A DNA stretch of 22,150 nucleotides. Origin: a virus. Positions 1-22,150 of the stretch are shown here, one piece after another (positions within the stretch are counted from its first letter, which is position 1; each line of letters starts with the position of its first letter). The notes under the pieces are model-generated. The model saw only the letters and a program-made list of their open reading frames with translations. It did no database searches and was not told the DNA's origin. The position numbers were made by a program, and so were the translations under genes. The stretch is from positions 1 to 22,150 of the IMG/VR virus record IMGVR_UViG_3300020312_000538; one strand, written 5' to 3'.

Positions 1-3000
1 TTCTGGACACCACCGCAGCAGTGGATAATCCAACATTTCCGTTCATAGTATTGACGAAAAATTCTTTTGGATTTCCTGAACCACGATTCTGATACCCATA
101 AATTTGTCCCCAACTATATTTACCCCAGAAGGTATCAGTAGTTGCAGTTGTACCTACACCAACCTGAATATGGTTGTTTCCATAAGGTGTTGGGCCTGGT
201 TCAAACGCACATGTAACAGTTACAAGTCCAGAAACTGCATCTCCTACAGTAACCTGTTCAACTCTGAATACTCCACCTAGATAATCACCAGCAGTTACCA
301 TACCAACAACTTCATTTGCACCACTGGAAGTTGTAATACCAGTTAATGCATGTCCAACAACTAAGGAACTATCATAGATTGTGAAATAATCTCCTTTTTC
401 AAGTCCAGAATATTCGACACCAAGAGCATTTAGTGAGGAATAACCATATCCCAAATTAGTGTTATCATTATATTGAGATTTAAGAGTAAACGCTAGTTGT
501 GGGAGTCTATTACCAGCACCTGGCAACCAAGTATTTATCCCTACAATGTCACCAAAGTCACCTTTAGAATTAACTGCGAAAATGTCTTCTTTCTTGGCCT
601 TATCAGTTTCAATAATAACTGGTGGAGAACTACCAACTTCATAACCAAATCCACCATCATTTACTATAATTGAAGTAAGAACACCAGCAGTAACAGAAGA
701 AGTTGCAGAAGCCCTATTAACTACTGGATCTGCATAGAACTGTGTAGTTGCAGTTCCAACTGCAAGAATTCTGCGACTTGCAAAATCACCAAATGGCGTA
801 TCAACGATATCTCTAATTTGATTACTATGGTTTATTTCTCTCTTATTCCAGTTTGCGAGATCAAATGAATAGTACATGTCACCAACAGTACTGATTCCAA
901 TATAGAATCCATCTATAAACTTAATTGTCTTAAAGTCAAACGTAGCAGGATGAACTGTTCCAACAGGTAATTGTTGACTCCAAGGTTGCCAGTAGTTCTT
1001 ATCAGTTGAAATACCAATAGTACCATTGTCACCAACAACGATAAATCTATTTCCATCATAAATGACATCATTTAAGTCATAAATTTGATTACTAATCTTG
1101 TTTGCCCATCCCTTACCATCATTAGATGCAATGATCTCACCACCATTACCAACTGCAATAAATTCAGATTGTCCATAACAGACAGAATTTAATTGTTGTA
1201 AAGTACCAGAATATTGACTGAATGCCTCAGCAGTTGTAAGACCAACAGCAGTAAAGATAGATCCAGCAGCACCAACTGCAACCCATGTATTTCTAGTTCC
1301 TTCCCAAATAACATCTTGGAAATTACCTTCATAGGTACTATCAAATACTCCTGTCTGGTTAATAGCAGGAATTGTTCTTTCTTCTTTAAGATCCAAAGCA
1401 GACCAAGTACCTATACTGTTACCAATCGCAACTGCTCTTGCCATAGACGCATAATCACCTACAGCCATAACATTTAGACTGCCCTGATTGGCATAACTGA
1501 ATCCCATACCAACACCATTAAAGGTGATAGTATTACCAAATCCAATTTGCCCTCTTTCCCAGAAAGTACCACTCTTAGTATTAATGTAGTAACTACTTGA
1601 TCCAACAGCAACAATTGGTTCCTGTTGAGTAATAGCCTTAAATTCAACTGATTGAAGAACACCACTAATTCCATCAAATTTCCAATCTTTGATAGGATCT
1701 TTACGAGTAATTAATGCACTTGAAATAGCAACATTAGGACTTGCAAGATTACTATATCCAGTTCCACCATAACTGATAGCCAAAGAAGATATACTAGATG
1801 AAGTAGAAACAATAGAGGTTACAATACCTGGCTCTACAACATTATCATCAAAGACTTGTATATTTCTTTCAGCTTGAAGTAATTTATCAATATTTGTGAA
1901 TAATGGGAAGGCATTACTTACATGAATTCTGTCATCTAAATTTCCAACAGTCTTGATAATCCTTGTAGTAGGAAGAACCTTACTCTTCAAACTAGGTCTT
2001 GATTTTGGTATCAATACACCAGAAAGAATTTGATCCTGTCTTTGTTTAATCCAAGATAGTGGTCTATCAGCGTTTTGATCAGTATTAATTCCAATACTAT
2101 CGTATGTGAATGTTTCTAAAAGATCAGAAGCAACTATTCTCTTAGTTGTTCTTGGGAACTGATCAATATCAAATAAGTCTAACTTATTCTCTTTAATCTG
2201 TACAATATCACCAGACTTAACTGATTGAACTGGTTCAACTGTTTCAACGTCTCTCTTAGATCCTCTGAAGTAGAATACAGAACACTTAGAATTAGGTTTA
2301 GGAGCCTCAGTAAAGATAACTCTACTACCTTTGAAAGTATAAGAAGATTGTGGAGTCTGGAGAATATCATTAATGTAGATAAAGATATTGTTTGTAATAT
2401 CCATATCACTACCAGGCAGAGTCTTAAGACTCAATATTTCAGTCTCACCAGCAGTTGTTACTGATAAAGTAAACTTCTTACGTTGTCCATTAAAGTATGC
2501 GGAAATATCATCAAATAAGATGAATTGGCCAGGATAGAATCCTGAGAAAGTATCACTTTCTAGTTCTACAACTTTTAATTGGAATTCGGTAAGAACGCCA
2601 ACTCTTGGGTCAGTAGCAATACCAGAAACAGTTAATTCTTCGTCAACTTTAAATGCAGTTCCTTCTTCAAGAATATTATACTCACCAATTTGACCATCAA
2701 CGTTAACACGAATATCAACTTTGGAATCTGTTCCAAGACCTGTTGATCCAGAAACATATTCAAGTTTTCTGTTGAAATATGGGTCTGGTTCTGCAATATC
2801 AACATAAACTGGTTTGTCTATCCTACCACCTCTCTTGAATAGAGCTTTTTCAGTAGTTAATCCAGCATTAACTCTAAAGGTAGCACTGTCTATCTTCTCT
2901 ATAACATCAAATCCAGAGAATCCTTTCTCAATAGAAGAAGCAATTCTCTTACCTTGTTGAGAAAGTCCGCCCCTGTTATAGTTGTGATCTACAGTAGAAA

Positions 3001-6000
3001 TACCAACATTAACAACAAAGTTCTTACTATCAATAATCTTATCTACAAATGTACCACCAGATGCATAGTCAGTTCCACTTGCTGAATTATTAAATGCTCT
3101 TGGAGCAATAATAACACCCTGAACAGTACCACCAGAATTATAGTGTGTTGGAACGGTAGAAACACCGACGTTAGTTTCAATGTTATTAGCGTCTATAACT
3201 CTAGTAACAACAGATCCATTATACCAAGGATCTCCACCCTTCGGATATACATGAGAAGTTGCATTACCATCTCTTGAACACTTGAAGTATATGGACTCAT
3301 TTGCCAACTTAACAGTCTGTCCAACCTCAAGACTATGAGTTCCAATACTCATTGTCATAACACCAACAGACTCTTGATAAGTTGCACCACCAACGTTGAA
3401 ATTAACTTGGTTTGTTGCACCAACATTCAAACTAAGAGTATTTGATGTTATCTTAGTTGGTAATAATCCCTCAGCATGAGCAGGATCATCAATACCAGCT
3501 GCACCACAATTTAATGTGATTGTAGTATCACTAGTTGCTCCAATTGAAACAACTTTCTTATGAATAGGATCACTTGTACGTGGATAAGTGTGATTCGTAG
3601 CATGAGCATCTTGAGCACAAGTAAATGTCAAGGCATTTGTAGCAATTCCTACATTAGCATTATCGTCTACAACGAATCCGTGACCAGCACCAACTGTTAA
3701 TTCAAGATCTCCAATTACATCATTGTAAGATGCATCAGTAACGTTATATGTTACAAGAGTAGAAATACCACAGTTAATTGTTATTGTTGTACCCGTAACT
3801 GCCTTAATTCCAACCTGTTTGTTATTAATTGGGTCAGCATCACGAGGATATGCATGATTAGTTGCATGTGCATCTCTAGCACATGTCATTGTGATTGAAC
3901 GAGTATGAATACCAACAGTATTATTCGCCTTCTTAACACCATTAGTTGCAGAAGAAACGAATGTATGTACACCTACACTAGTTGAAGGAGGATTCTTAAC
4001 AACCTGAACAGAGAAAGTATTTGTATCTGTACCTAGAATAGGTAACCAAGTATTATAATAATCATCACTAGGACGAGGATATGCCTTAGGTGTTGCATGA
4101 GTGTCTATACCACAAGTAAAGACAAATGCATCTGGTTCAAACTTAACATATTCACCAACTTCCCATCCATGACCAGCAACGGTCACAGTCATTATACCAG
4201 CAGCAGGATTGTAATTTGCGTTTGTAGCAGTTGCTTGAGACTGTGCAAGTAAACCATGTCCAGCTCCAACTGTTAACTCAATATCTCCTGTTGATGGAGT
4301 ATATGTGGCGGTTGTAATACCACTAGAAACGATTGTAGAAACACCAACATTAACAGTGATTGATTTAACAGTAGTTGCTCCAATAGCAACGTTTGTAAGA
4401 CCATGTACAGGGTCAGAAGCCCTTGGATATGCATGATTAGTTGCATGATTATCTCTTTCACAAGTTAAAACAATACCACCTGTTGCAATTCCAACTGTAT
4501 TACTACCTGCAATTAATCCATGTGCAGCTGCAAACTTCAGAATCATATTACCTGTAACGGCATTATAAGACACATCAGTAGGAGTTAATTTCGTTCCAGT
4601 CCAAGAACCGACATGAATTGAATTTGTAGCAGCACTGACAAAGTTATGTTTGTAATTACCACCAGTAAATGCAACACCAGCAAGAGAACTTACGTAAGTG
4701 TGTGCATAATCTCCACCTTTAATTACTGCACCAGCTGTTGCACTAACGAAAGTATGTGCAAAGCCTGGTCTTGGATATGCATGTTCTGAAGCATGTTGAT
4801 CCATATCACAAGAGAATATCAATCCACCAGTTGCAATACCAACACTTGTGGCGGTAGTTAATCCGTGAGAACTATCAGTCGTAAAGGTTACAATACCAGT
4901 AGAAGGAGTGTAAGTAGATGTGGTTATATTGTACTTAACCAGACTTGTTATACCAACATTGAATGTAAAGGTGTCTGCTGTGGAGGTTAAAATACCAATT
5001 TCCTTATTATTAATTGGATCACCTGTATTTGACTTACCAACGAATAGTGTTATTGTGTTGGCAGTTGTAGCACCAATTGATACATTCTTGTTGTGTATTG
5101 GATCAGTATTACGAGGATATGTGTGATTAGTTGCATGTAGATCTCTCGCACATGTAAATGTCATTGAATTGGTAACAATACCAATTGGTTGACCAACTAA
5201 AAGTCCATGATTGGCAATGGTTATTTCCATCGATCCTGCTTCAGGATCATAAGTTGCAGCAGTTATATTCTTAGATACAATCTGACTAACACCTACATTA
5301 ACCGTAATTGTGTCAAGTGTAGTAGCACCAATAGCAACATTTGTAAGACCGTGAACTGGATCTGTTGATCTTGGATATCTGTGTTCTGTTGCGTGATTGT
5401 CTCTTGCACAAGTTAGATTAATTGAAGAAGTCTTAATACCAATTGTATTAGTGCCTGCAACCAATCCATGATTAGACCCAAATGTCAGAACCATATTACC
5501 TGTTTCTGCATTATAGGCAGCATTTGTTGGTGTTAATTTAGCACCACTTTGAGTAACATAAATCGACTCGGCATCAGCACTTACGAAATTATGTGCATAT
5601 GATCCACCAGTAAATGCAGCACCAGCTGTCGCACTTACAAATGTATGAGCATAACCTGATCTTGGATATGTGTGATCAGATCCATAATTATCTTGAGAAC
5701 ACTGGAAGGTATAAGAATTAGTTGTTAAACCAATTGTATCTCTTGCAATCGTTATATTATTTGGTATTGAATTTTCATATGTATGAATATAGTTACCACC
5801 AGAGATAACGGAATCCGCAGATGCTGAGATAAAGATATGCTCTGATTGGTTAGAAGACTTACCAACATCTAGGGTAATTGTTGTATCAGTTGTACCAGTA
5901 ATCTTAACTGCAGTATTGTAAGCGGGATCTGGGCCACTAATAGAAGTTGCTCTAGGATAAAAATGATTTGTAGCGTGATTATCTTGACCACAAGTAAACT

Positions 6001-9000
6001 TAAAGGCTCTCGTCTTAAGTTTTACTGAATTTCCTTTCTTAAGATAATGTTCACCAATATCTACAGTCATCAATCCAGTGAAAGGATTATAAGATCCACT
6101 TGTAGGACTGTGAGTAACAATGGTAGATACACCAACAGTAACCTTAAAGTTCGTGTCATCAATAGTTTCTACAGGTAACCACTGTTGATTTACTGGATCT
6201 GATGCCCTTGGATAACTCTTGATGGACTTTCTACCATCCATCATACATCTGAAATTAATAGAGTCTCTTTGGAATTGAACCCTATCTCCAGTTGTTAGAT
6301 TATGATCACCATTTGTTGTGACCGTCATAATGCCAGATGCAGCATCATAAGTCGCAAAATTAGTTGTTTGAGTTAATGAACCATTCAATCCATGACGATT
6401 AGAGAACACAGTTACAATACCAGTGCTGGCAGTATATGCAGCAGTTGTTATTGAGTAATTTTTAATCGTTGTTACACCAACATTAATGGTAATACTATTA
6501 TCAGTTGTTGCTCCAATACCAACACTCTTATTACCACCAATAGGATCATCAGGACGAGGATAAGCATGTTTCGTCTTATGTTCATCTCTGAAACATGTCA
6601 TAACGATTGATGCAGTATTAATTCCAACTGTATCAGTCGCTTTCTTCAATGCATTTGCAGAAGAACTCTTAAAGATATGATTAGTTGTATTTGTAGAAAT
6701 TCCAACAAAAACTGAGAATGTATTAATACCAACATTGTAAATTGGTAACCATTCGTTCAAATATGGATCAGATGCTCTTGGATATGCATGATCAGTTGCA
6801 TAATCATCTTCCTCACAGTTAAATGTAATCGCACCAAGATCAAATTTAACATAATCACCGCTAAGGAACCCATGAGCTGTGATTGTAGGTTCTAATACAC
6901 CTGTAGAAGGAGTATATGTTGCGGTTGTGATGGTGTGTGAGGTTGGAGAAGTATAAGAATGACCTGTTCCAACTGCCAATGTTAAATCACCTGTGGCAGG
7001 GTTATACCCAGCGTTAGTGATTGATCTTTCTTGAATAGTTGATACACCGACTCTAACTTCAAAAGTATTAGTTGTTGTATCAACAATTCCCAATTCTGTG
7101 TTATATGCTGGGTCTGTTGTACGAGGATATGCATGTTCCGTTGCATAATTATCTTTTGCACACTTGAATGTTAATGCACCTTTAGATATTTCAACCTTTG
7201 TTGAAGGTCTCTTAAGTCCACCAGCAACAGCAGATGCAAATGTATGGTCATAGACACCACCAGTAATTACGGCATCTGTTCCCACTCCACTAAATGTATG
7301 TCCATAATCACCACCAGAAATTACACCCTCAACTGCAACACCTTGGTTTGGAACAAATGAGTGTATAAAGTTACCAAGAGTTGTTACACCAACATTAGCT
7401 GTGAATATTGTACCAGCACAACTAACAATAGGAACCGATGTATTATAGAAGGGATCCTGTGGTCTTGGATAGAAATGGTTAGTTTGGAAAGCATCTTTAG
7501 CACATTTAAAGACGATAGAACCTTCTTTAAATTTAATACTTTCTCCAACAGTAAATCCATGAACCCTATCAAGAGAAACAGTAATAATACCAACAACAGG
7601 GTTATAATCTGCAAATCTAATATTGTACTTAACTATAGTTGTAACACCAACTTGTACAGTGATTGTTGTATCGCCTACTCCAGTAATAGGAACAGCAGTA
7701 TCATAAACAGGGTCGCTAGATCTTGGATAATACTTTGTAGATGTCTGACCATCCATCTCACACTTAAATCCAAGTGAAGATGGTTTAATTTTAATACTAG
7801 AACCTGATAATAGATCATGATCACCAATAGTCATGGTCATCACACCTACAGAAGGCGTATAATCAGCATCAGTAACACTGTAATTAACAATGGTACTCAT
7901 ACCAACAAATACTTCAAAGTTATCTGTTGTTTTATTAGATATTGGCAACCACTGATTACTTACAGGATCAGTAGTACGTGGATATGTATGAATGGTGGAA
8001 TTATCATCCATTGAACACTTAAATCCAATGGCATTATCATCAATCTTAATTTGATCACCATTGGCAAAACCATGACTAGGAACAGTTATGGTTAATATAC
8101 CAACAAGAGCATTATATCTTGCAGTTGTTATTGTATGAGATGTTGGCCCTGATAATCCATGGCCAGGAACTGTTAGAACTAATGCACCAGTACTAGGAAC
8201 ATAATCTGCATTTGTTGGTGTAGTTGTACCACCACCAACTATATCAATACATCCAGAAACAGTTCTTGATGGGACAAAAGTATGTGCATAATTGCCACCA
8301 ACTTTTATAGTCTTATCCTCAGAACTAACGAATTTATGTTCGTAATTACCACCACTGAATGTAGAGTTAGAAGTAGCACTAATAAACTTGTGAGTAAAAT
8401 CTCCACCAGTTAATAATGCACCTTCTTCTGCACGAAGGAACTTGTGATTATATGCACCACCAGTTATTAAAGCATCAGCATTTGCCTTATCAAATACATG
8501 AGTGAATTGATCCTTTGGAGGAGCAAATCCAACATCAATAGTAACTGTTGTACCAGCAATACCAACAATAGGAAGTGAAGTATCGTATGCAGTAGAACGA
8601 CTTCTTGGGTAATAGTGTTGATTTGCACCATTATCCAACTGACATGTAAATCCTAGACCAGTAAATACAACATCTTTACCCACCTTATAACCATGAGCAG
8701 CAGAAGTTGTTACTGTCATAACACCTGTAGTGTTATCATACTCTGCACTTGATATACCTAGTGCTGGATCATAATTACAAGTGAATGATATACCAGAAAG
8801 AATGACGCAATCGTCTTCGGTCAGATTATGATTCTTTCTAGTAGTAATTGTTGCAATACCAGTACTTTCATCATATTCTACTCCACCAACATTTACGGAA
8901 GGAGCACTTGTAAATGTAACCGCAATACCAGTTGCATATATGAAATCATCAGTTTCTAATCCATGTCCTTCATAGGCAATGAAAGAACCTATCCCTGCAT

Positions 9001-10879
9001 GATGAGTATGGATACCAGTTGTTTCTAGTTGATCTCCAATATTAACAGTGAAATTATTAGCATCTGCAACACTTCTTACACCATAATACTTTTGTGCATC
9101 AGATGGGAATGTAATATCACCCTGACCAGTACTAAAACCAATTCCAACTAATTTAACAACACTGGATGTTGTTAATCCATGTCCACTTCCAGAAGTAATT
9201 GTGGCAACACCAGATATATCATCATAATCTACTAATGTAATTGCAACTGAATTTCCAGCCTGATTACCATAAGCAGTAAGAGTGGTAATACCATTTGAAG
9301 GAGTTTCATTGATGTATGAAATAGTCCTTGGTGCATAGAATCCAGTTCCACCTTCTACAATACTGAAATTGGTTATTATTCCTGCTTCTGCCCTGTTGAC
9401 TACACCACCAGTTACATATTGATGTGCAAAAGTAGATATACCAACAAAAGCTTCAAATGTATTTGTGGTTACACCAATTACATCAAAACCAAGTACATTT
9501 CTACCCTCTAAAATGGCAGTATCAACACCAGCTCTTGTAATTCCACCACTAACATAAGTTAATGGTTGTGTACTTATACCAAGATTAACTAATACGTTAT
9601 TGGCATCAATAACTTCAGTAATCGGATAAGCATCTTCTCTAAAGGTATATGTACTAATACCATTATAGACTTGTACTTGTGTTATTAATAGATTTCTACT
9701 TCTATTACTTCCCGTACCAATATAGTGACCACCCGTAACTCCAATAGTAGCAATTCCAGTTATATAATCATATCCAAAGGTATTAATATTCCTATTCGCA
9801 GATACAGGAGTAAATGTAAATCCTGCACCAGTTACCCTAACTCTATCATCTTTCTCAAACCCATGAGATGCAGCACCAGTACTAAATGTACAGATACCTG
9901 CAATATGGTTATAATCTGCGGTACTAATAGCAACTGCACTTCCAGCTGAAGTTCCAAGATATGCAGTTAAACTTGCACCATAACCTTGAGATGATCTAAC
10001 ACTAATTTCTGGTACTGATCTATATCCTTGACCCTTACCTTCTATTTGAATAAACTCAAGACTACCAGTTGATCCAACACCAACCCTTGCAGCAGCCTTA
10101 AGAGGTAAGTAATATCCTGAACCAGTTTGAAGTCCTACTTTATTAATTCTTCCTGCCCTTGGAACTCCACTTAAGAAATTGATCTTATTTGAGGCATTAT
10201 CTACAATCTCAAAATCGAGTCCTGGCGTTTGTACTACATTATTGATTAAAACGAATGGATTATTGTTAATATCCACTCCAGTATTAACATTATTATAAAC
10301 AGAGGTAACTATCCCGTTATTCTCTGTTAAAGTAAATTGAGTTCCTGCAATACCTGTAAATTCTAATGATATGTCATCTAGAATTGTGTTAGTGTCAGAA
10401 GTGTCATAAGGATCCAACTTTCTGGAGAACATTCTGCCAGCAAATGAAGATCCAGTTTTGAGTCCGACTGGGCCAGTTTTACCATAGGGAGCATCACTGA
10501 AAAAGATGTTATCGTCTACAATATTATAGTCACCTGAAAATACTGAATAAGCAATACCAGCAGAACTATGACTAGTTCCTAAAGTACCAAAAGCACCTCT
10601 CTCTACAACAACCTGTGACTGTGTAGATGTACTAAAAACAGGATAATATCCAACACCTGTTTTAAAGATAATAATATCAGATATGGTGCCTACACCACTA
10701 ATAACAGGGAAAAATACACCTTCAACAGTCGGTGAAGTTGTCCCTTCAATTTCTATTTTTGGAGGATCCGTTTTAGCGTATCCAGATCCACCAGACAAGA
10801 CTTCTATCTGATGGACACCGTAAGTTGAGTTAAAGGATGGTTTAAATAACGCTCCCGATCCAGGCGTAGTTCTTGGCAT
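1..10879 (-). CDS. Giant modular repeat virion protein, at least 3626 codons, 3' end beyond the left window edge
   Basis: One frame runs from ATG 10879 (MPRTTPGSGALFKPSFNSTY) to the left edge; spot translation along its length found the frame intact and no stop. I do not recognise it as a T4 core protein; a virion fibre/adhesin or baseplate-appendage role is inferred from position and composition. Modules in order: residues 1-740, GxGY strand repeats, an 'INNVVQTPG' module and 'HGLxxxD' modules; about 746-2547, 18 copies of C-x2-D-x5-[HK]-x-Y-P-[RK] separated by 'VGxST', 'AxYxPxTGxMTxT' and 'HGLxxGDxVKF' beta modules and interrupted by GGxYxHxF repeats; about 2550-3080, further modules including NIFIYINDILQTPQ; about 3085-3386, a probable seven-bladed propeller; then GGFGYEVG and more. 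The protein is rich in Thr/Val/Gly/Ile, with one Cys per array unit. No signal peptide or transmembrane segment is evident. It is the last gene of the visible transcript. Confidence 0.85.
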   Translation of the reverse strand, partial: MPRTTPGSGALFKPSFNSTYGVHQIEVLSGGSGYAKTDPPKIEIEGTTSPTVEGVFFPVISGVGTISDIIIFKTGVGYYPVFSTSTQSQVVVERGAFGTLGTSHSSAGIAYSVFSGDYNIVDDNIFFSDAPYGKTGPVGLKTGSSFAGRMFSRKLDPYDTSDTNTILDDISLEFTGIAGTQFTLTENNGIVTSVYNNVNTGVDINNNPFVLINNVVQTPGLDFEIVDNASNKINFLSGVPRAGRINKVGLQTGSGYYLPLKAAARVGVGSTGSLEFIQIEGKGQGYRSVPEISVRSSQGYGASLTAYLGTSAGSAVAISTADYNHIAGICTFSTGAASHGFEKDDRVRVTGAGFTFTPVSANRNINTFGYDYITGIATIGVTGGHYIGTGSNRSRNLLITQVQVYNGISTYTFREDAYPITEVIDANNVLVNLGISTQPLTYVSGGITRAGVDTAILEGRNVLGFDVIGVTTNTFEAFVGISTFAHQYVTGGVVNRAEAGIITNFSIVEGGTGFYAPRTISYINETPSNGITTLTAYGNQAGNSVAITLVDYDDISGVATITSGSGHGLTTSSVVKLVGIGFSTGQGDITFPSDAQKYYGVRSVADANNFTVNIGDQLETTGIHTHHAGIGSFIAYEGHGLETDDFIYATGIAVTFTSAPSVNVGGVEYDESTGIATITTRKNHNLTEDDCVILSGISFTCNYDPALGISSAEYDNTTGVMTVTTSAAHGYKVGKDVVFTGLGFTCQLDNGANQHYYPRSRSTAYDTSLPIVGIAGTTVTIDVGFAPPKDQFTHVFDKANADALITGGAYNHKFLRAEEGALLTGGDFTHKFISATSNSTFSGGNYEHKFVSSEDKTIKVGGNYAHTFVPSRTVSGCIDIVGGGTTTPTNADYVPSTGALVLTVPGHGLSGPTSHTITTARYNALVGILTITVPSHGFANGDQIKIDDNAIGFKCSMDDNSTIHTYPRTTDPVSNQWLPISNKTTDNFEVFVGMSTIVNYSVTDADYTPSVGVMTMTIGDHDLLSGSSIKIKPSSLGFKCEMDGQTSTKYYPRSSDPVYDTAVPITGVGDTTITVQVGVTTIVKYNIRFADYNPVVGIITVSLDRVHGFTVGESIKFKEGSIVFKCAKDAFQTNHFYPRPQDPFYNTSVPIVSCAGTIFTANVGVTTLGNFIHSFVPNQGVAVEGVISGGDYGHTFSGVGTDAVITGGVYDHTFASAVAGGLKRPSTKVEISKGALTFKCAKDNYATEHAYPRTTDPAYNTELGIVDTTTNTFEVRVGVSTIQERSITNAGYNPATGDLTLAVGTGHSYTSPTSHTITTATYTPSTGVLEPTITAHGFLSGDYVKFDLGAITFNCEEDDYATDHAYPRASDPYLNEWLPIYNVGINTFSVFVGISTNTTNHIFKSSSANALKKATDTVGINTASIVMTCFRDEHKTKHAYPRPDDPIGGNKSVGIGATTDNSITINVGVTTIKNYSITTAAYTASTGIVTVFSNRHGLNGSLTQTTNFATYDAASGIMTVTTNGDHNLTTGDRVQFQRDSINFRCMMDGRKSIKSYPRASDPVNQQWLPVETIDDTNFKVTVGVSTIVTHSPTSGSYNPFTGLMTVDIGEHYLKKGNSVKLKTRAFKFTCGQDNHATNHFYPRATSISGPDPAYNTAVKITGTTDTTITLDVGKSSNQSEHIFISASADSVISGGNYIHTYENSIPNNITIARDTIGLTTNSYTFQCSQDNYGSDHTYPRSGYAHTFVSATAGAAFTGGSYAHNFVSADAESIYVTQSGAKLTPTNAAYNAETGNMVLTFGSNHGLVAGTNTIGIKTSSINLTCARDNHATEHRYPRSTDPVHGLTNVAIGATTLDTITVNVGVSQIVSKNITAATYDPEAGSMEITIANHGLLVGQPIGIVTNSMTFTCARDLHATNHTYPRNTDPIHNKNVSIGATTANTITLFVGKSNTGDPINNKEIGILTSTADTFTFNVGITSLVKYNITTSTYTPSTGIVTFTTDSSHGLTTATSVGIATGGLIFSCDMDQHASEHAYPRPGFAHTFVSATAGAVIKGGDYAHTYVSSLAGVAFTGGNYKHNFVSAATNSIHVGSWTGTKLTPTDVSYNAVTGNMILKFAAAHGLIAGSNTVGIATGGIVLTCERDNHATNHAYPRASDPVHGLTNVAIGATTVKSITVNVGVSTIVSSGITTATYTPSTGDIELTVGAGHGLLAQSQATATNANYNPAAGIMTVTVAGHGWEVGEYVKFEPDAFVFTCGIDTHATPKAYPRPSDDYYNTWLPILGTDTNTFSVQVVKNPPSTSVGVHTFVSSATNGVKKANNTVGIHTRSITMTCARDAHATNHAYPRDADPINNKQVGIKAVTGTTITINCGISTLVTYNVTDASYNDVIGDLELTVGAGHGFVVDDNANVGIATNALTFTCAQDAHATNHTYPRTSDPIHKKVVSIGATSDTTITLNCGAAGIDDPAHAEGLLPTKITSNTLSLNVGATNQVNFNVGGATYQESVGVMTMSIGTHSLEVGQTVKLANESIYFKCSRDGNATSHVYPKGGDPWYNGSVVTRVIDANNIETNVGVSTVPTHYNSGGTVQGVIIAPRAFNNSASGTDYASGGTFVDKIIDSKNFVVNVGISTVDHNYNRGGLSQQGKRIASSIEKGFSGFDVIEKIDSATFRVNAGLTTEKALFKRGGRIDKPVYVDIAEPDPYFNRKLEYVSGSTGLGTDSKVDIRVNVDGQIGEYNILEEGTAFKVDEELTVSGIATDPRVGVLTEFQLKVVELESDTFSGFYPGQFILFDDISAYFNGQRKKFTLSVTTAGETEILSLKTLPGSDMDITNNIFIYINDILQTPQSSYTFKGSRVIFTEAPKPNSKCSVFYFRGSKRDVETVEPVQSVKSGDIVQIKENKLDLFDIDQFPRTTKRIVASDLLETFTYDSIGINTDQNADRPLSWIKQRQDQILSGVLIPKSRPSLKSKVLPTTRIIKTVGNLDDRIHVSNAFPLFTNIDKLLQAERNIQVFDDNVVEPGIVTSIVSTSSSISSLAISYGGTGYSNLASPNVAISSALITRKDPIKDWKFDGISGVLQSVEFKAITQQEPIVAVGSSSYYINTKSGTFWERGQIGFGNTITFNGVGMGFSYANQGSLNVMAVGDYASMARAVAIGNSIGTWSALDLKEERTIPAINQTGVFDSTYEGNFQDVIWEGTRNTWVAVGAAGSIFTAVGLTTAEAFSQYSGTLQQLNSVCYGQSEFIAVGNGGEIIASNDGKGWANKISNQIYDLNDVIYDGNRFIVVGDNGTIGISTDKNYWQPWSQQLPVGTVHPATFDFKTIKFIDGFYIGISTVGDMYYSFDLANWNKREINHSNQIRDIVDTPFGDFASRRILAVGTATTQFYADPVVNRASATSSVTAGVLTSIIVNDGGFGYEVGSSPPVIIETDKAKKEDIFAVNSKGDFGDIVGINTWLPGAGNRLPQLAFTLKSQYNDNTNLGYGYSSLNALGVEYSGLEKGDYFTIYDSSLVVGHALTGITTSSGANEVVGMVTAGDYLGGVFRVEQVTVGDAVSGLVTVTCAFEPGPTPYGNNHIQVGVGTTATTDTFWGKYSWGQIYGYQNRGSGNPKEFFVNTMNGNVGLSTAAVVSR
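722..1627 (-). other. Probable seven-bladed beta-propeller domain of the giant ORF
   Basis: Residues about 3085-3386 hold seven recurring segments with an 'xxVxxG...FxAVGxxGxIxxSxDGxxW' pattern: EPIVAVGSSSYY, LNVMAVGDYA, NTWVAVGAAGSIF, EFIAVGNGGEIIASNDGKGW, RFIVVGDNGTIGISTDKNYW, GFYIGISTVGDMYYSFDLAN, and RILAVGTATTQFY. The S-x-D-G-x-x-W turn resembles the Asp-box of BNR/YCF48-like propellers. Seven segments in about 300 residues fits a standard seven-bladed propeller. Function in this virus is unknown; such propellers commonly mediate protein or glycan contacts. Confidence 0.7.
4612..4770 (-). repeat. GGxYxHxF repeat cluster D (three units)
   Basis: Units GFAHTFVSA, GGDYAHTYVSS and GGNYKHNFVSA directly follow the Cys core at 4769 (YPRPGFAHTF), with the same fusion of core and repeat as in cluster C. 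This suggests that the core plus GGxYxHxF block was copied as one piece. Confidence 0.78.
5572..5850 (-). repeat. GGxYxHxF repeat cluster C (four units flanking one Cys core)
   Basis: Units EHIFISA and GGNYIHTYEN lie on the N-terminal side of the core at 5660, and GYAHTFVSA and GGSYAHNFVSA follow immediately after it. Here the core arginine runs straight into the repeat (YPRSGYAHTF), so the usual DPxxN segment has been replaced by a GGxYxHxF unit. Confidence 0.75.
7216..7374 (-). repeat. GGxYxHxF repeat cluster B (three units)
   Basis: Three units, GNFIHSFVPN, GGDYGHTFSG and GGVYDHTFASA, lie between the array cores at 7463 and 7121. They follow the VGVTTL strand and precede the KLGGxKxPS linker region leading to the next Cys core. 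Same repeat family as the other GGxYxHxF clusters. Confidence 0.75.
8250..8514 (-). repeat. GGxYxHxF repeat cluster A (four to five tandem units)
   Basis: Tandem units of about 17 residues read FTHVF, GGAYNHKFLRA, GGDFTHKFISA, GGNYEHKFVSS and GGNYAHTFVPS. Conserved positions are Gly-Gly, an aromatic residue, His two residues later, then Phe and small residues. The cluster lies between the first C-x2-D core (8603) and the second (7976) and fills part of the unusually long gap between them. Confidence 0.8.
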
Positions 10880-10884
10880 TTAAT

Positions 10885-10896
10885 CTACGTCCTCTA
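10885..10896 (-). promoter_or_regulatory. Ribosome binding site of the giant ORF, overlapping the preceding stop
   Basis: The minus strand reads TAGAGGACGTAGATTAA followed by ATG. The AGAGGA Shine-Dalgarno sequence overlaps the TAG stop of the 340-residue gene, and about ten bases separate it from the ATG at 10879. This supports ATG 10879 as the true start, and its position suggests that translation of the two genes is linked. Confidence 0.7.
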
Positions 10897-11916
10897 TATG
10901 ATGTTAATGGAACTACTACAGTAAACTCTAGTAACACCAGTAGAATCTCTGATAATACTAAAGGTCAATATATCATCGTTTGCGGTTGCAGGAGGAGGAT
11001 TACCACCAACCCACCTAACGCCAGATGCAACTGGAGCACCATTGACGTTTACTGCATCTCCGTAGGTATAACCAATTCCAGATCTATTGATAAGAGTAAC
11101 AGTTGTTGCTTTACTGTTTGCACCACTAACATTAGTGAAATCCCATGTAACAACAGAAGTTGTAAGTCCACCCAGAACAACTGATCCTTGATTTACATCA
11201 ACAGTAAATGTACCACCTGCACTTACAGTGAGATTATCACTAAAGTTACCTACTACCTTCTCTGTAATATCTGCATTAAAGTTTACTTGATCCGTTAAAG
11301 TACTAGTACCACTGACTAAAACATCACCCTGAACATCTAGTCTACAAGTTGGAGCAGTAGAACCTATTCCAGTATATGCATTTTTATCAACAACAAATGA
11401 CTTTCCATCGGTAATATTTTGATCGGATACTCGCAATCCATGTCCATTACCTTTTGCAATTGCCCATATAGTAGGTCTTTCGTTTGAGAATGATGCAACT
11501 TGTAACTGTGAGGTAGGCAATGATGTGCCGATACCAACCATACCATCAGCTTTGATCCTAAACATGGTGGTTGCATAACCAACCTCAATAGGCCCATCCG
11601 TAATTGCACCTGGCTGTTGAATAGTTATCTTACCAACATCAGCATAACTTGATGTTACAACACCAGATGTATTGACCATTATATCATCTGCAACACTCTT
11701 CGCAATACCCGCTGCAATTGATGTTGTTGCAATACCGCAGTTGGTAGAGTAACCAGCAGTAGTAGCGTAAGAAACGAAACTTAAAAGGTTAGCACCGTCC
11801 CCAAACGTTTCATAAATTTCACTAAAATTACTATTGATTTTTATGGTTCCTGCCAATAGGGTATCACCCGTGCCGTCATTCGGAGCAGAACCAGTACTAA
11901 TTCCCTGTTTAGACAT
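10894..11916 (-). CDS. gp9/gp10-like N-terminus fused to fibre-like shaft; virion structural protein (340 aa)
   Basis: This is probably a baseplate or tail-fibre connector protein. Residues 14-41 (DGTGDTLLAGTIKINSNF, then SEIYETFGDG) closely follow the N-terminus shared by T4 gp9 and gp10 (DGTGD.L..GGIKIN.NFDELY..LGDG), which anchors those proteins to the wedge. The rest is Ala/Gly/Thr/Ser/Val-rich and fibre-like. Two related motifs, VGIGTSLPTSQLQV (127-140) and GIGSTAPTCRLDVQGDVLVS (183-202), match the 'GIGTxxPxxxLdVxGdvxvsG' repeats of trimeric tail-fibre and adhesin shafts. The C-terminal 110 residues form a beta-rich domain with no S74-type chaperone signature. T4 gp9 is 288 aa and gp10 is 602 aa, so the length fits neither exactly. 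The gene follows its own late promoter and ends in TAG 14 nt before the next ATG. The leader shows no clear Shine-Dalgarno. Which T4 gene it should be named after is not settled by the sequence. Confidence 0.72.
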   Translation of the reverse strand: MSKQGISTGSAPNDGTGDTLLAGTIKINSNFSEIYETFGDGANLLSFVSYATTAGYSTNCGIATTSIAAGIAKSVADDIMVNTSGVVTSSYADVGKITIQQPGAITDGPIEVGYATTMFRIKADGMVGIGTSLPTSQLQVASFSNERPTIWAIAKGNGHGLRVSDQNITDGKSFVVDKNAYTGIGSTAPTCRLDVQGDVLVSGTSTLTDQVNFNADITEKVVGNFSDNLTVSAGGTFTVDVNQGSVVLGGLTTSVVTWDFTNVSGANSKATTVTLINRSGIGYTYGDAVNVNGAPVASGVRWVGGNPPPATANDDILTFSIIRDSTGVTRVYCSSSINII

Positions 11917-20947: not shown

Positions 20948-22150
20948 TTATCTTGTATAGATTGTTTCGCTAGCATAACTAGAGGTTTTGACGTATGATG
21001 TAGCAGATGTATTTTCACCAGATGAAATAACGTCTGGTAAAGCAGTAACTTTACTATTTGCGACATCTAATTGGAGATACAAATCCTTCAAAGCAATAAC
21101 ATCATTTGATTCGGGAATTGTCTCTATTTCGATGACTCCGCTTGCAAGTGCAGCACCTGTTATATTTACCACATCCAAAATAAGCTCTCCGTGAGCATAA
21201 TCAATTGTACCAGCGTCATTTTTAACAATTAGAGGAAGATTATTGACTAATTTAAAGAATACAAGTTTTCCTACAGTTGTTCCAGCGGTAGGAATGTCTC
21301 CAATATATAAAGTTCCATCAATACCACTTACTGTAAACCCTGTTGAACGCACTCCATATCCACCACACTGTTGATAGAAGGCATTTCCATAACAGAGTTC
21401 ATATGTTGCAAAAGTATTGATCTCAGGGGTTATATCCCTCCTCATCTTAACTCTGGTGATGTTTGAAGTAACACCCCTTGCAGAGTCATCAATTAGACCA
21501 ACAACTTTACTATATTTGAATCTACCACCAAAATCATTAATATCAGACGATGATGAGTAAGTTGTTAGTGTTCTTGTAACAGCAGTAAGCAATTCAGTAG
21601 CATCTGAAGTTGCGTTAGTGTTATAATACACTGCCGTATCGACTTCAACGTAAAGATACTTGAGATCGATGATTTCTGGTTTAATTCCAGCAATAGAATA
21701 CTGTTTTAGTTGCCTAGAAATATCATCCTTAGTAATTTGAGATAAGAATGAACCATTTTTAGGTTTTATTGAAATAAAGACCTTTCCATATTCAGGAGGA
21801 TCCAGTTCTTCCCCTCCATAGGCGGTCACAGACTCAACGTTAGGATATACGAATGGAATTATACCCGAATAGTCGTTGGCGGTCACGGCACGGTACTGTG
21901 ATGAGTATATACGAGGTGCAAGATACTTAATTGAACTTACATCTTCAATACTGTCACCCATTTCCGCTTTTTGGGTTGTTGTGAGAAGTGAAATACCACC
22001 AGTAATCGTAGAATCGGTATCATCCTTCAAAATTCCCACAAATGAGAAATTTCTAGCGTTATTTCCCAATGCTCCGTTAGTTACAATGTAAGTAACTTCA
22101 ATAATTGCTCCAGCAGGCGGTTTTTTACCAATAATTCCGTCTCCAAAGAG
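20948..22150 (-). CDS. 6: Baseplate wedge subunit gp6 (C-terminal 400 residues; 5' end beyond window)
   Basis: This is the C-terminal part of the T4-type baseplate wedge protein gp6, which forms the inner ring of the baseplate by pairing of neighbouring wedges. The frame is open to the right edge and ends at TAA (20950-20948). Just inside the edge it reads LFGDGIIGKKPP, then VTYIVTNG and GNNARNF, a pattern typical of the Baseplate_J/gp6 fold. Further on come YSSQYRAVTANDY, YGKVFISIKPKNG, and a C-terminal block with RVKMRRDI and CYGNAFYQ. T4 gp6 has 660 residues, so roughly the last 60% is visible. A TTG at 22069-22067 could be mistaken for a start, but conserved gp6 sequence continues upstream of it, so it is internal. 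The gp7 start codon follows the stop with no gap, matching the T4 order 6-7. Family identification is from motif recognition and is confident; residue-level boundaries are not. Confidence 0.9.
   Translation of the reverse strand, partial: LFGDGIIGKKPPAGAIIEVTYIVTNGALGNNARNFSFVGILKDDTDSTITGGISLLTTTQKAEMGDSIEDVSSIKYLAPRIYSSQYRAVTANDYSGIIPFVYPNVESVTAYGGEELDPPEYGKVFISIKPKNGSFLSQITKDDISRQLKQYSIAGIKPEIIDLKYLYVEVDTAVYYNTNATSDATELLTAVTRTLTTYSSSSDINDFGGRFKYSKVVGLIDDSARGVTSNITRVKMRRDITPEINTFATYELCYGNAFYQQCGGYGVRSTGFTVSGIDGTLYIGDIPTAGTTVGKLVFFKLVNNLPLIVKNDAGTIDYAHGELILDVVNITGAALASGVIEIETIPESNDVIALKDLYLQLDVANSKVTALPDVISSGENTSATSYVKTSSYASETIYTR

Follow-up and report, generated by a model that had tools for sequence, protein, structure and literature searches.

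The 22,150-nt stretch of viral DNA analysed here (IMG/VR record IMGVR_UViG_3300020312_000538, positions 1 to 22,150; hereafter the window) encodes on its minus strand, within one uninterrupted open reading frame (ORF) of 3,626 amino acids (aa; window 2-10879), an array of 18 copies of a Cys-Asp-His/Lys-Tyr-Pro-Arg repeat. The array probably forms a beaded arm of the phage baseplate, built of small β-barrels like those of phage endosialidases and of the FCCH domains of ubiquitin E1 enzymes, in which the conserved hairpin residues would be a signature of the fold rather than an active site. The window appears to derive from a T4-like cyanophage of the family Kyanoviridae, with S-SSM7 as the nearest isolate (identical at 76% of nucleotides across 89% of the window). 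The hosts of this family are marine Synechococcus and Prochlorococcus, photosynthetic cells that dominate in the sea.

The initial annotation, made from the sequence alone, had counted 18 copies at 3239-8644, and this count is exact: the pattern C..D.{7}YP[RK] has 18 non-overlapping matches on the minus strand, with 3239 and 8644 as the outermost bases, where chance would give 0.0005 core matches on average (2,000 residue shuffles of the window protein). All 18 cores are 14 residues long and read C-x2-D-x5-[H/K]-x-Y-P-[R/K], with Cys, Asp, Tyr and Pro each present in 18/18 copies, His (15/18) or Lys (3/18) at the tenth position, and Arg (17/18) or Lys (1/18) at the last. The conserved entity is larger than this core, being a domain of ~85 aa: 14 units align over 88 profile columns with 30-43% identity to the first unit, so that the surroundings, at first described as widely divergent, belong to the repeat itself, and the unit size of 85-115 residues first proposed gives way to core-to-core spacings of 74-209 aa. 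The 100% self identity obtained for unit pairs 6/7 and 15/16 was an artefact of overlapping extraction windows. A profile built from the 14 units recovered all 18 copies together with diverged, YPR-less copies nearer the protein's N-terminus (independent hidden Markov model (HMM) E-values of 5e-6, 7e-7 and 2e-7 in a search of two proteins).

The first part of the unit consensus reads Y-x4-G-x-h-T-h-T-x4-H-G-L-x2-G-D-x-h-K-I-A-D-x-S-L-T-F-T-C-x2-D-x5-H/K-x-Y-P-R-x2-D-P and is followed, after a gap, by a closing part, h-x-I-x2-V-T-x-x-T-F-x-V-x-V-G. Core spacings cluster near 74, 85 and 115 aa, corresponding to units in which the N-terminal hairpin is swapped for an H-T-F segment, single, or double, while the Cys/YPR half is kept. 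Units 10 and 13 are partial, their C-terminal halves being replaced by copies of an 18-aa G-G-x-Y-x-H-x-F repeat, and the 209-aa gap between units 1 and 2 is filled by the same repeat. This second repeat, GGxYxHxFvSA, is exactly 18 aa long and occurs in ~15 copies interspersed with the barrel units, sometimes replacing half a unit.

The repeat is not an orphan, and hundreds of related viruses carry the unit. By tblastn, 267 of 50,697 phage records matched the array, all of them cyanophages or marine viruses; with the consensus unit and E-values up to 10, 378 records matched, 374 of them from the same sources, and a pattern scan of IMG/VR gave at least 600 matches. Plasmids gave no match to the unit, and a pattern scan of 84,980 cellular genomes returned six loci, all in marine metagenome-assembled genomes (MAGs) or a single-amplified genome, which we judged to be phage contigs. 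Among the MAG contigs, L096, L097, L098 (27 cores) and L101, binned as Planctomycetaceae, Rhodopirellula, Euryarchaeota and Dehalococcoidia, encode cyanophage units and are probably misbinned. The earlier remark that no named domain of this signature was known holds in that no Pfam or NCBIfam model passes its curated cut-off against the repeat; the unit is nevertheless already contained in PHROGs 1276, 5342, 701 and 18802, and its predicted fold is recognisable. Phrog_5342, 1276 and 701 match 14/14 units (best E 8e-18), each of the four PHROGs, with 18802, matching 13 or 14/14, and phrog 1276 (325 aa) matches 19 stretches of the window protein. Separate tail-fibre genes of S-SSM7 and P-SSM2 also contain units. 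Kyanoviridae baseplate and tail-fibre proteins thus commonly contain this module, which, so far as observed, is confined to T4-like cyanophages.

The genomic position of the repeat protein points to the baseplate. The protein is 53-67% identical to S-SSM7 SSSM7_103 (3,001 aa) in the two best pieces, aligned to residue 2996. The S-SSM7 gene order is gp25-gp6-giant-gp9/10-giant-gp8, followed by a large gene that sits where P-SSM4 has a gene annotated VrlC, and the order in P-SSM2, P-SSM4, P-RSM6 and P-TIM40 is gp25-gp6-giant. The repeat giant therefore lies between gp6 and gp8, the gp8 side falling outside the window and being seen in S-SSM7. In P-SSM2 a single protein, gp7 (5,195 aa), aligns over residues 7-2649 with the neighbouring 3,000-aa protein of the window and over residues 3164-4847 with the repeat protein. 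A single ORF of 5,195-8,573 aa encodes the giant of this locus in P-SSM2, P-SSM4, P-TIM40 and P-RSM6, with L003 9516-25103 also cited, whereas an intervening gp9/10-like gene divides it into two in the window, S-SSM7 and Sf-FS3. T4 gp7 is reported to be absent from cyanomyophages (PMC7029224), and the name gp7 for the cyanophage giant is positional; the baseplate wedge model PF23786 scores a weak 12.5 bits (cut-off 27) in the neighbouring giant. Two units (E 4.5e-30 and 3.8e-29) occur in the S-SM1 homologue SSM1_102 (6,180 aa, T4-GC969), and mass spectrometry of purified S-SM1 virions is reported to have detected T4-GC969 (PMC3037559). A 6,619-aa gp7-like giant, S-SZBM1_208, was also found in virions (PMC9146016); it contains no units (L111 14249-34108), where relatives have up to 18 or more, and thus cannot serve as experimental support, and its presence in the virion indicates that the beads are optional, the module being dispensable in a gp7-like giant.

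Structure prediction and remote comparison suggest what each unit looks like. A single unit modelled with AlphaFold2 from 110 aligned units has seven strands, with a predicted local distance difference test (pLDDT) score of 88.7 and a predicted template modelling (pTM) score of 0.73; in the model, strand 4 is followed at once by the Cys, a helical turn of three residues finishes at the Asp, and strand 5 closes with the YPR tyrosine. A three-unit model reached pLDDT 82.1 and pTM 0.53. With Foldseek, the single unit matched the K1F endosialidase (probability 0.98-0.99; root-mean-square deviation (rmsd) 2.7-3.4 Å over 78-84 columns) and the phi92 endosialidase (probability 0.94-0.97), and the three-unit model matched Uba1 (probability 0.93-0.94). 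A profile of endosialidase barrels (five sequences) matched the unit profile with 79.8% probability, compared with at most 1.0% in 20 column shuffles; the K1F barrel reads ATIHVPDHGLFVGDFVNFSNSAVTGVSGDMTVATVIDKDNFTV. PF12195 (End_beta_barrel) matched 11 of the 110 units, all weakly (best 9e-4), and PF16190 (E1_FCCH) matched 6 of the 110, also weakly. The unit is accordingly predicted, with the support of converging weak matches, to adopt a small β-barrel of the type seen in phage endosialidases and in the FCCH domains of ubiquitin E1.

Several points weigh against this picture. No Foldseek match in the PDB reaches E 1e-3, the endosialidase matches standing at E 0.14-0.33, and the endosialidase sequence alignment spans only the 24-residue HGL hairpin. 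PF12195 reached at best 20.1 bits (cut-off 35) among six records, with no match in the window, and PF16190 reached 24.5 bits (cut-off 29.5) over the whole window protein, with a best local score of 14 bits in the window. The fold assignment thus rests on the agreement of weak signals. The relative orientation of the units is uncertain, given the pTM of the three-unit model, and the virion evidence concerns the two-unit relative SSM1_102 rather than the window phage. Other candidates were set aside: the iota-carbonic anhydrase 7c5x (E 4.6e-4 with the 110-row profile against PDB sequences, 0.12 with the window profile) was dismissed as a motif coincidence, its score adding up three stretches of 4-9 bits that were each insignificant; KTSC, Cthe_2159, DUF7243, fibronectin type I and other weak Pfam matches were inconsistent between units; and tandem FnIII domains and alphavirus spikes, matched by Foldseek with three units, superposed at rmsd 15-30 Å. 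In the BFVD, A0A346FK93 of Synechococcus virus S-PRM1, named an endosialidase, matches the three-unit model at E 2e-8.

We propose that the array is a chain of such barrels that would give the giant baseplate protein of the gp7 locus a long, beaded arm in its second half. Each unit would be a barrel variant with a Y-x4-G...T hairpin, an H-G-L/F-x2-G-D turn and a closing VT-TF-VNVG hairpin, into which a second hairpin, F-T-C-x2-D-x5-H/K-x-Y-P-R-x2-D-P, is inserted. This hairpin is most likely locked to the barrel by its conserved residues: the Cys and Tyr-Pro would be packed, a brief helical turn would lead from the Cys to the Asp, and the His/Lys would touch the same loop. The chain would presumably be extended and might hold or reach the host surface, and gain or loss of units or half-units would alter its length and surface.

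The endosialidase likeness also raises the possibility that each unit is a weak carbohydrate-binding module and the array a device for multivalent attachment to host surface polysaccharide, which would add a function to the arm without contradicting it. By analogy, glycan binding by the units is plausible: the best structural match is the barrel that serves K1F as one of its three sites for polysialic acid and is a hotspot of host discrimination (PMC12632334), separate tail-fibre genes carry units, the neighbouring giant has a YHYH domain, and the copy number is variable and can be zero. Against this, the conserved positions fall within the inserted hairpin, an element absent from endosialidases, and resemble fold residues, and the aligned HGL hairpin is shared with E1 enzymes, which are known for a task other than sugar binding; we regard a sugar-binding array as possible but doubtful. 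The broader idea that giant cyanophage baseplate arms are tunable multivalent glycan grips, whose barrels share stock with the endosialidase polysialic-acid barrel plus a new Cys/YPR hairpin, and whose host range or grip changes as beads are added, deleted or half-replaced, is more speculative still.

Conservation across the family bears on the role of the motif residues. From 1,052 distinct units, 421 remained at 62% redundancy; given that the viral scan was seeded with motif-containing patterns, the motif-residue percentages are inflated, whereas the exceptions are real. Among the 421 units, Pro is present in 421, Cys in 417, Tyr in 416, Arg in 406, Asp54 in 405, Asp41 in 378 (absent from 10%), His in 313 and Lys in 80 (19%). 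The core is 14 residues long in 374/421 units and 12-33 in the others, so that the fixed core length and invariant Asp claimed at first hold for the window protein but not for the family, in which length varies and the Asp stands at 90%. Loop variants such as TCTQGSGNHSYPR retain only Cys and YPR, as do variants without Asp such as FTCTQGSGNHSYPRSSDP, and the choice between His and Lys shows its strongest covariation with nearby positions of the loop (z 21, 16, 12 and 12).

With exactly one Cys in 378/421 units, a near-invariant Cys and an extracellular virion, interchain disulfides could in principle zip neighbouring arms together, but in the model the Cys sits in a tight hairpin just where a core strand ends, a setting that suits a packed residue better, and there is no conserved partner position, which makes such bonds improbable. 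Slightly less probable yet is a metal site or catalytic triad of Cys, Asp and His in every copy. The fixed spacing of Cys, Asp and His/Lys in 18/18 copies speaks for it, as do the 352 of 421 units that combine Asp, His or Lys, and the 14-residue core. The joint invariance of Cys, Asp and His that a thiol enzyme or metal site would call for is, however, not found among the 421 non-redundant units; since Asp and His/Lys can be lost and the loop length can change, a shared catalytic or metal site is unlikely. Covariation of the His/Lys choice mainly with its own loop argues in the same direction, and eighteen active sites would be unusual for a structural arm. The chemical role once considered for these residues is weakened by the variants without Asp or His and by the His/Lys exchange, while the expectation that each copy is a constrained structural unit was borne out. 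The pattern fits a hairpin clasp, as in the barrel arm proposed above, rather than a shared active site.

Tandem Repeats Finder found no DNA-level tandem repeat in the array, and the ratio of non-synonymous to synonymous substitution rates (dN/dS) of the array is 0.15 against L018/L019, 0.18 against L017 and 0.24 against S-SSM7. Taking these together, the array is an old protein-level array under purifying selection. Units 1-10 of the window are colinear with units 1-10 of S-SSM7, unit 13 with unit 11 and unit 18 with unit 12, leaving units 11, 12 and 14-17 without a positional partner; together with the likeness of units 11 and 14 (70% identical), this indicates that whole blocks were gained or lost as the array changed in size. 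The count in isolates runs from one unit in Syn9 and two in S-SM1 to 14 strict cores in P-RSM6; metagenomic ORFs reach 27, and homologues range from 0 to about 27. That range, and an array dN/dS slightly above that of the flanks, might suggest selectively neutral padding expanded by recombination, the least credible of the readings considered, given a dN/dS well below 1, a signature kept across hundreds of phages and an array that is not a recent DNA tandem repeat.

The only annotations carried by cyanophage baseplate giants (3,000-8,600 aa) are 'virion structural protein' and 'gp7'. A barrel module that can be counted, and whose predicted fold links it to a known sugar-binding barrel, would turn an unreadable protein into a parts list, and its recognition opens arm length, host range and ligand binding to direct tests. 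Beyond the array (Table 1), Asp-box-like SxDxxxW motifs and repeated AVG/VVG strands (~830-1730) suggest a C-terminal β-propeller, a region with no Pfam match; endosialidases likewise pair a propeller with a barrel. The 3,000-aa YHYH giant has no C-YPR units.

Table 1. Features of the window; bit scores of units are HMM scores from the unit-profile search.
Feature	Position	Strand	Remarks
Giant gene, probable baseplate arm, 3,626 aa	2..10879	-	ATG at 10879; window stops ~5 residues short of expected C-terminus
Array of 18 C-D-H/K-YPR units (predicted barrels), aa 710-2583	3131..8752	-	
Unit 1	8495..8752	-	72 bits
Unit 2	7868..8128	-	110 bits; modelled alone, pLDDT 88.7
Unit 3	7613..7873	-	101 bits
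Unit 4	7358..7618	-	85 bits
Unit 5	7019..7282	-	75 bits; HTF-type segment in place of N-terminal hairpin
Unit 6	6668..6928	-	101 bits
Unit 7	6443..6676	-	58 bits; short, HTF-type N-terminal half
Unit 8	6098..6364	-	94 bits; overlaps best Pfam E1_FCCH stretch
Unit 9	5831..6103	-	95 bits
Unit 10	5588..5800	-	30 bits; 18-aa repeats in place of C-terminal half
Unit 11	5258..5527	-	91 bits; 70% identical to unit 14
Unit 12	5021..5263	-	102 bits
Unit 13	4721..4924	-	59 bits; 18-aa repeats in place of C-terminal half
Unit 14	4316..4579	-	82 bits
Unit 15	3965..4225	-	97 bits
Unit 16	3734..3985	-	69 bits; HTF-type N-terminal half
Unit 17	3470..3739	-	90 bits
Unit 18	3131..3391	-	86 bits; core ending YPK
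Three diverged YPR-less units (predicted barrels) N-terminal to array	8759..9925	-	aa 319-368, 548-626, 665-707
18-aa GGxYxHxF repeat block between units 1 and 2	8240..8506	-	Regular 18-aa period
Other 18-aa repeat copies	7199-7369, 5546-5653, 4601-4762	-	
Possible Asp-box / propeller-like C-terminal region	830..1730	-	SxDxxxW motifs
T4 gp9/gp10-like wedge-fibre connector	10894..11916	-	PF07880 34.5 bits (cut-off 25); phrog_677
Giant gp7-locus baseplate wedge protein with YHYH domain, 3,000 aa	11945..20947	-	PF14240 71 bits; phrog_2885 1800 bits
gp6 baseplate wedge protein	20948..22150	-	PF21387; phrog_219 384 bits; 5' end beyond window

Although undescribed as a module, the repeat belongs to a familiar kind of structure and does not make up a new system. 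The PHROGs that contain it are sequence clusters, of which 1276 has no function, while 5342 bears the generic label tail fibre, and 701 and 18802 the label virion structural. The gp7-locus giants S-SSM7 SSSM7_103, P-SSM2 gp7 and S-SM1 SSM1_102 share the locus, homologous sequence and the same units with the window protein but differ in copy number (12, 7 and 2, respectively, against 18), and in P-SSM2 the giants are fused in one protein, whereas in the window they are split by the gp9/10-like gene. E1_FCCH (PF16190) resembles the unit in its HGL-type hairpin and in the Foldseek match to Uba1, but is a eukaryotic enzyme domain, present in a single copy and without the hairpin insert. The phage endosialidase barrel (PF12195; K1F endoNF 3ju4/1v0e, phi92 4hiz) shares with the unit a strand and the HGL-x2-GD turn (38% identity over 24 columns), agrees with the modelled barrel overall at ~3 Å and, like it, occurs in phage tail appendages. 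By contrast, it stands as a single copy inside an enzyme and has no FTC...YPR..DP hairpin, which is the addition made by the cyanophage unit relative to the K1F barrel.

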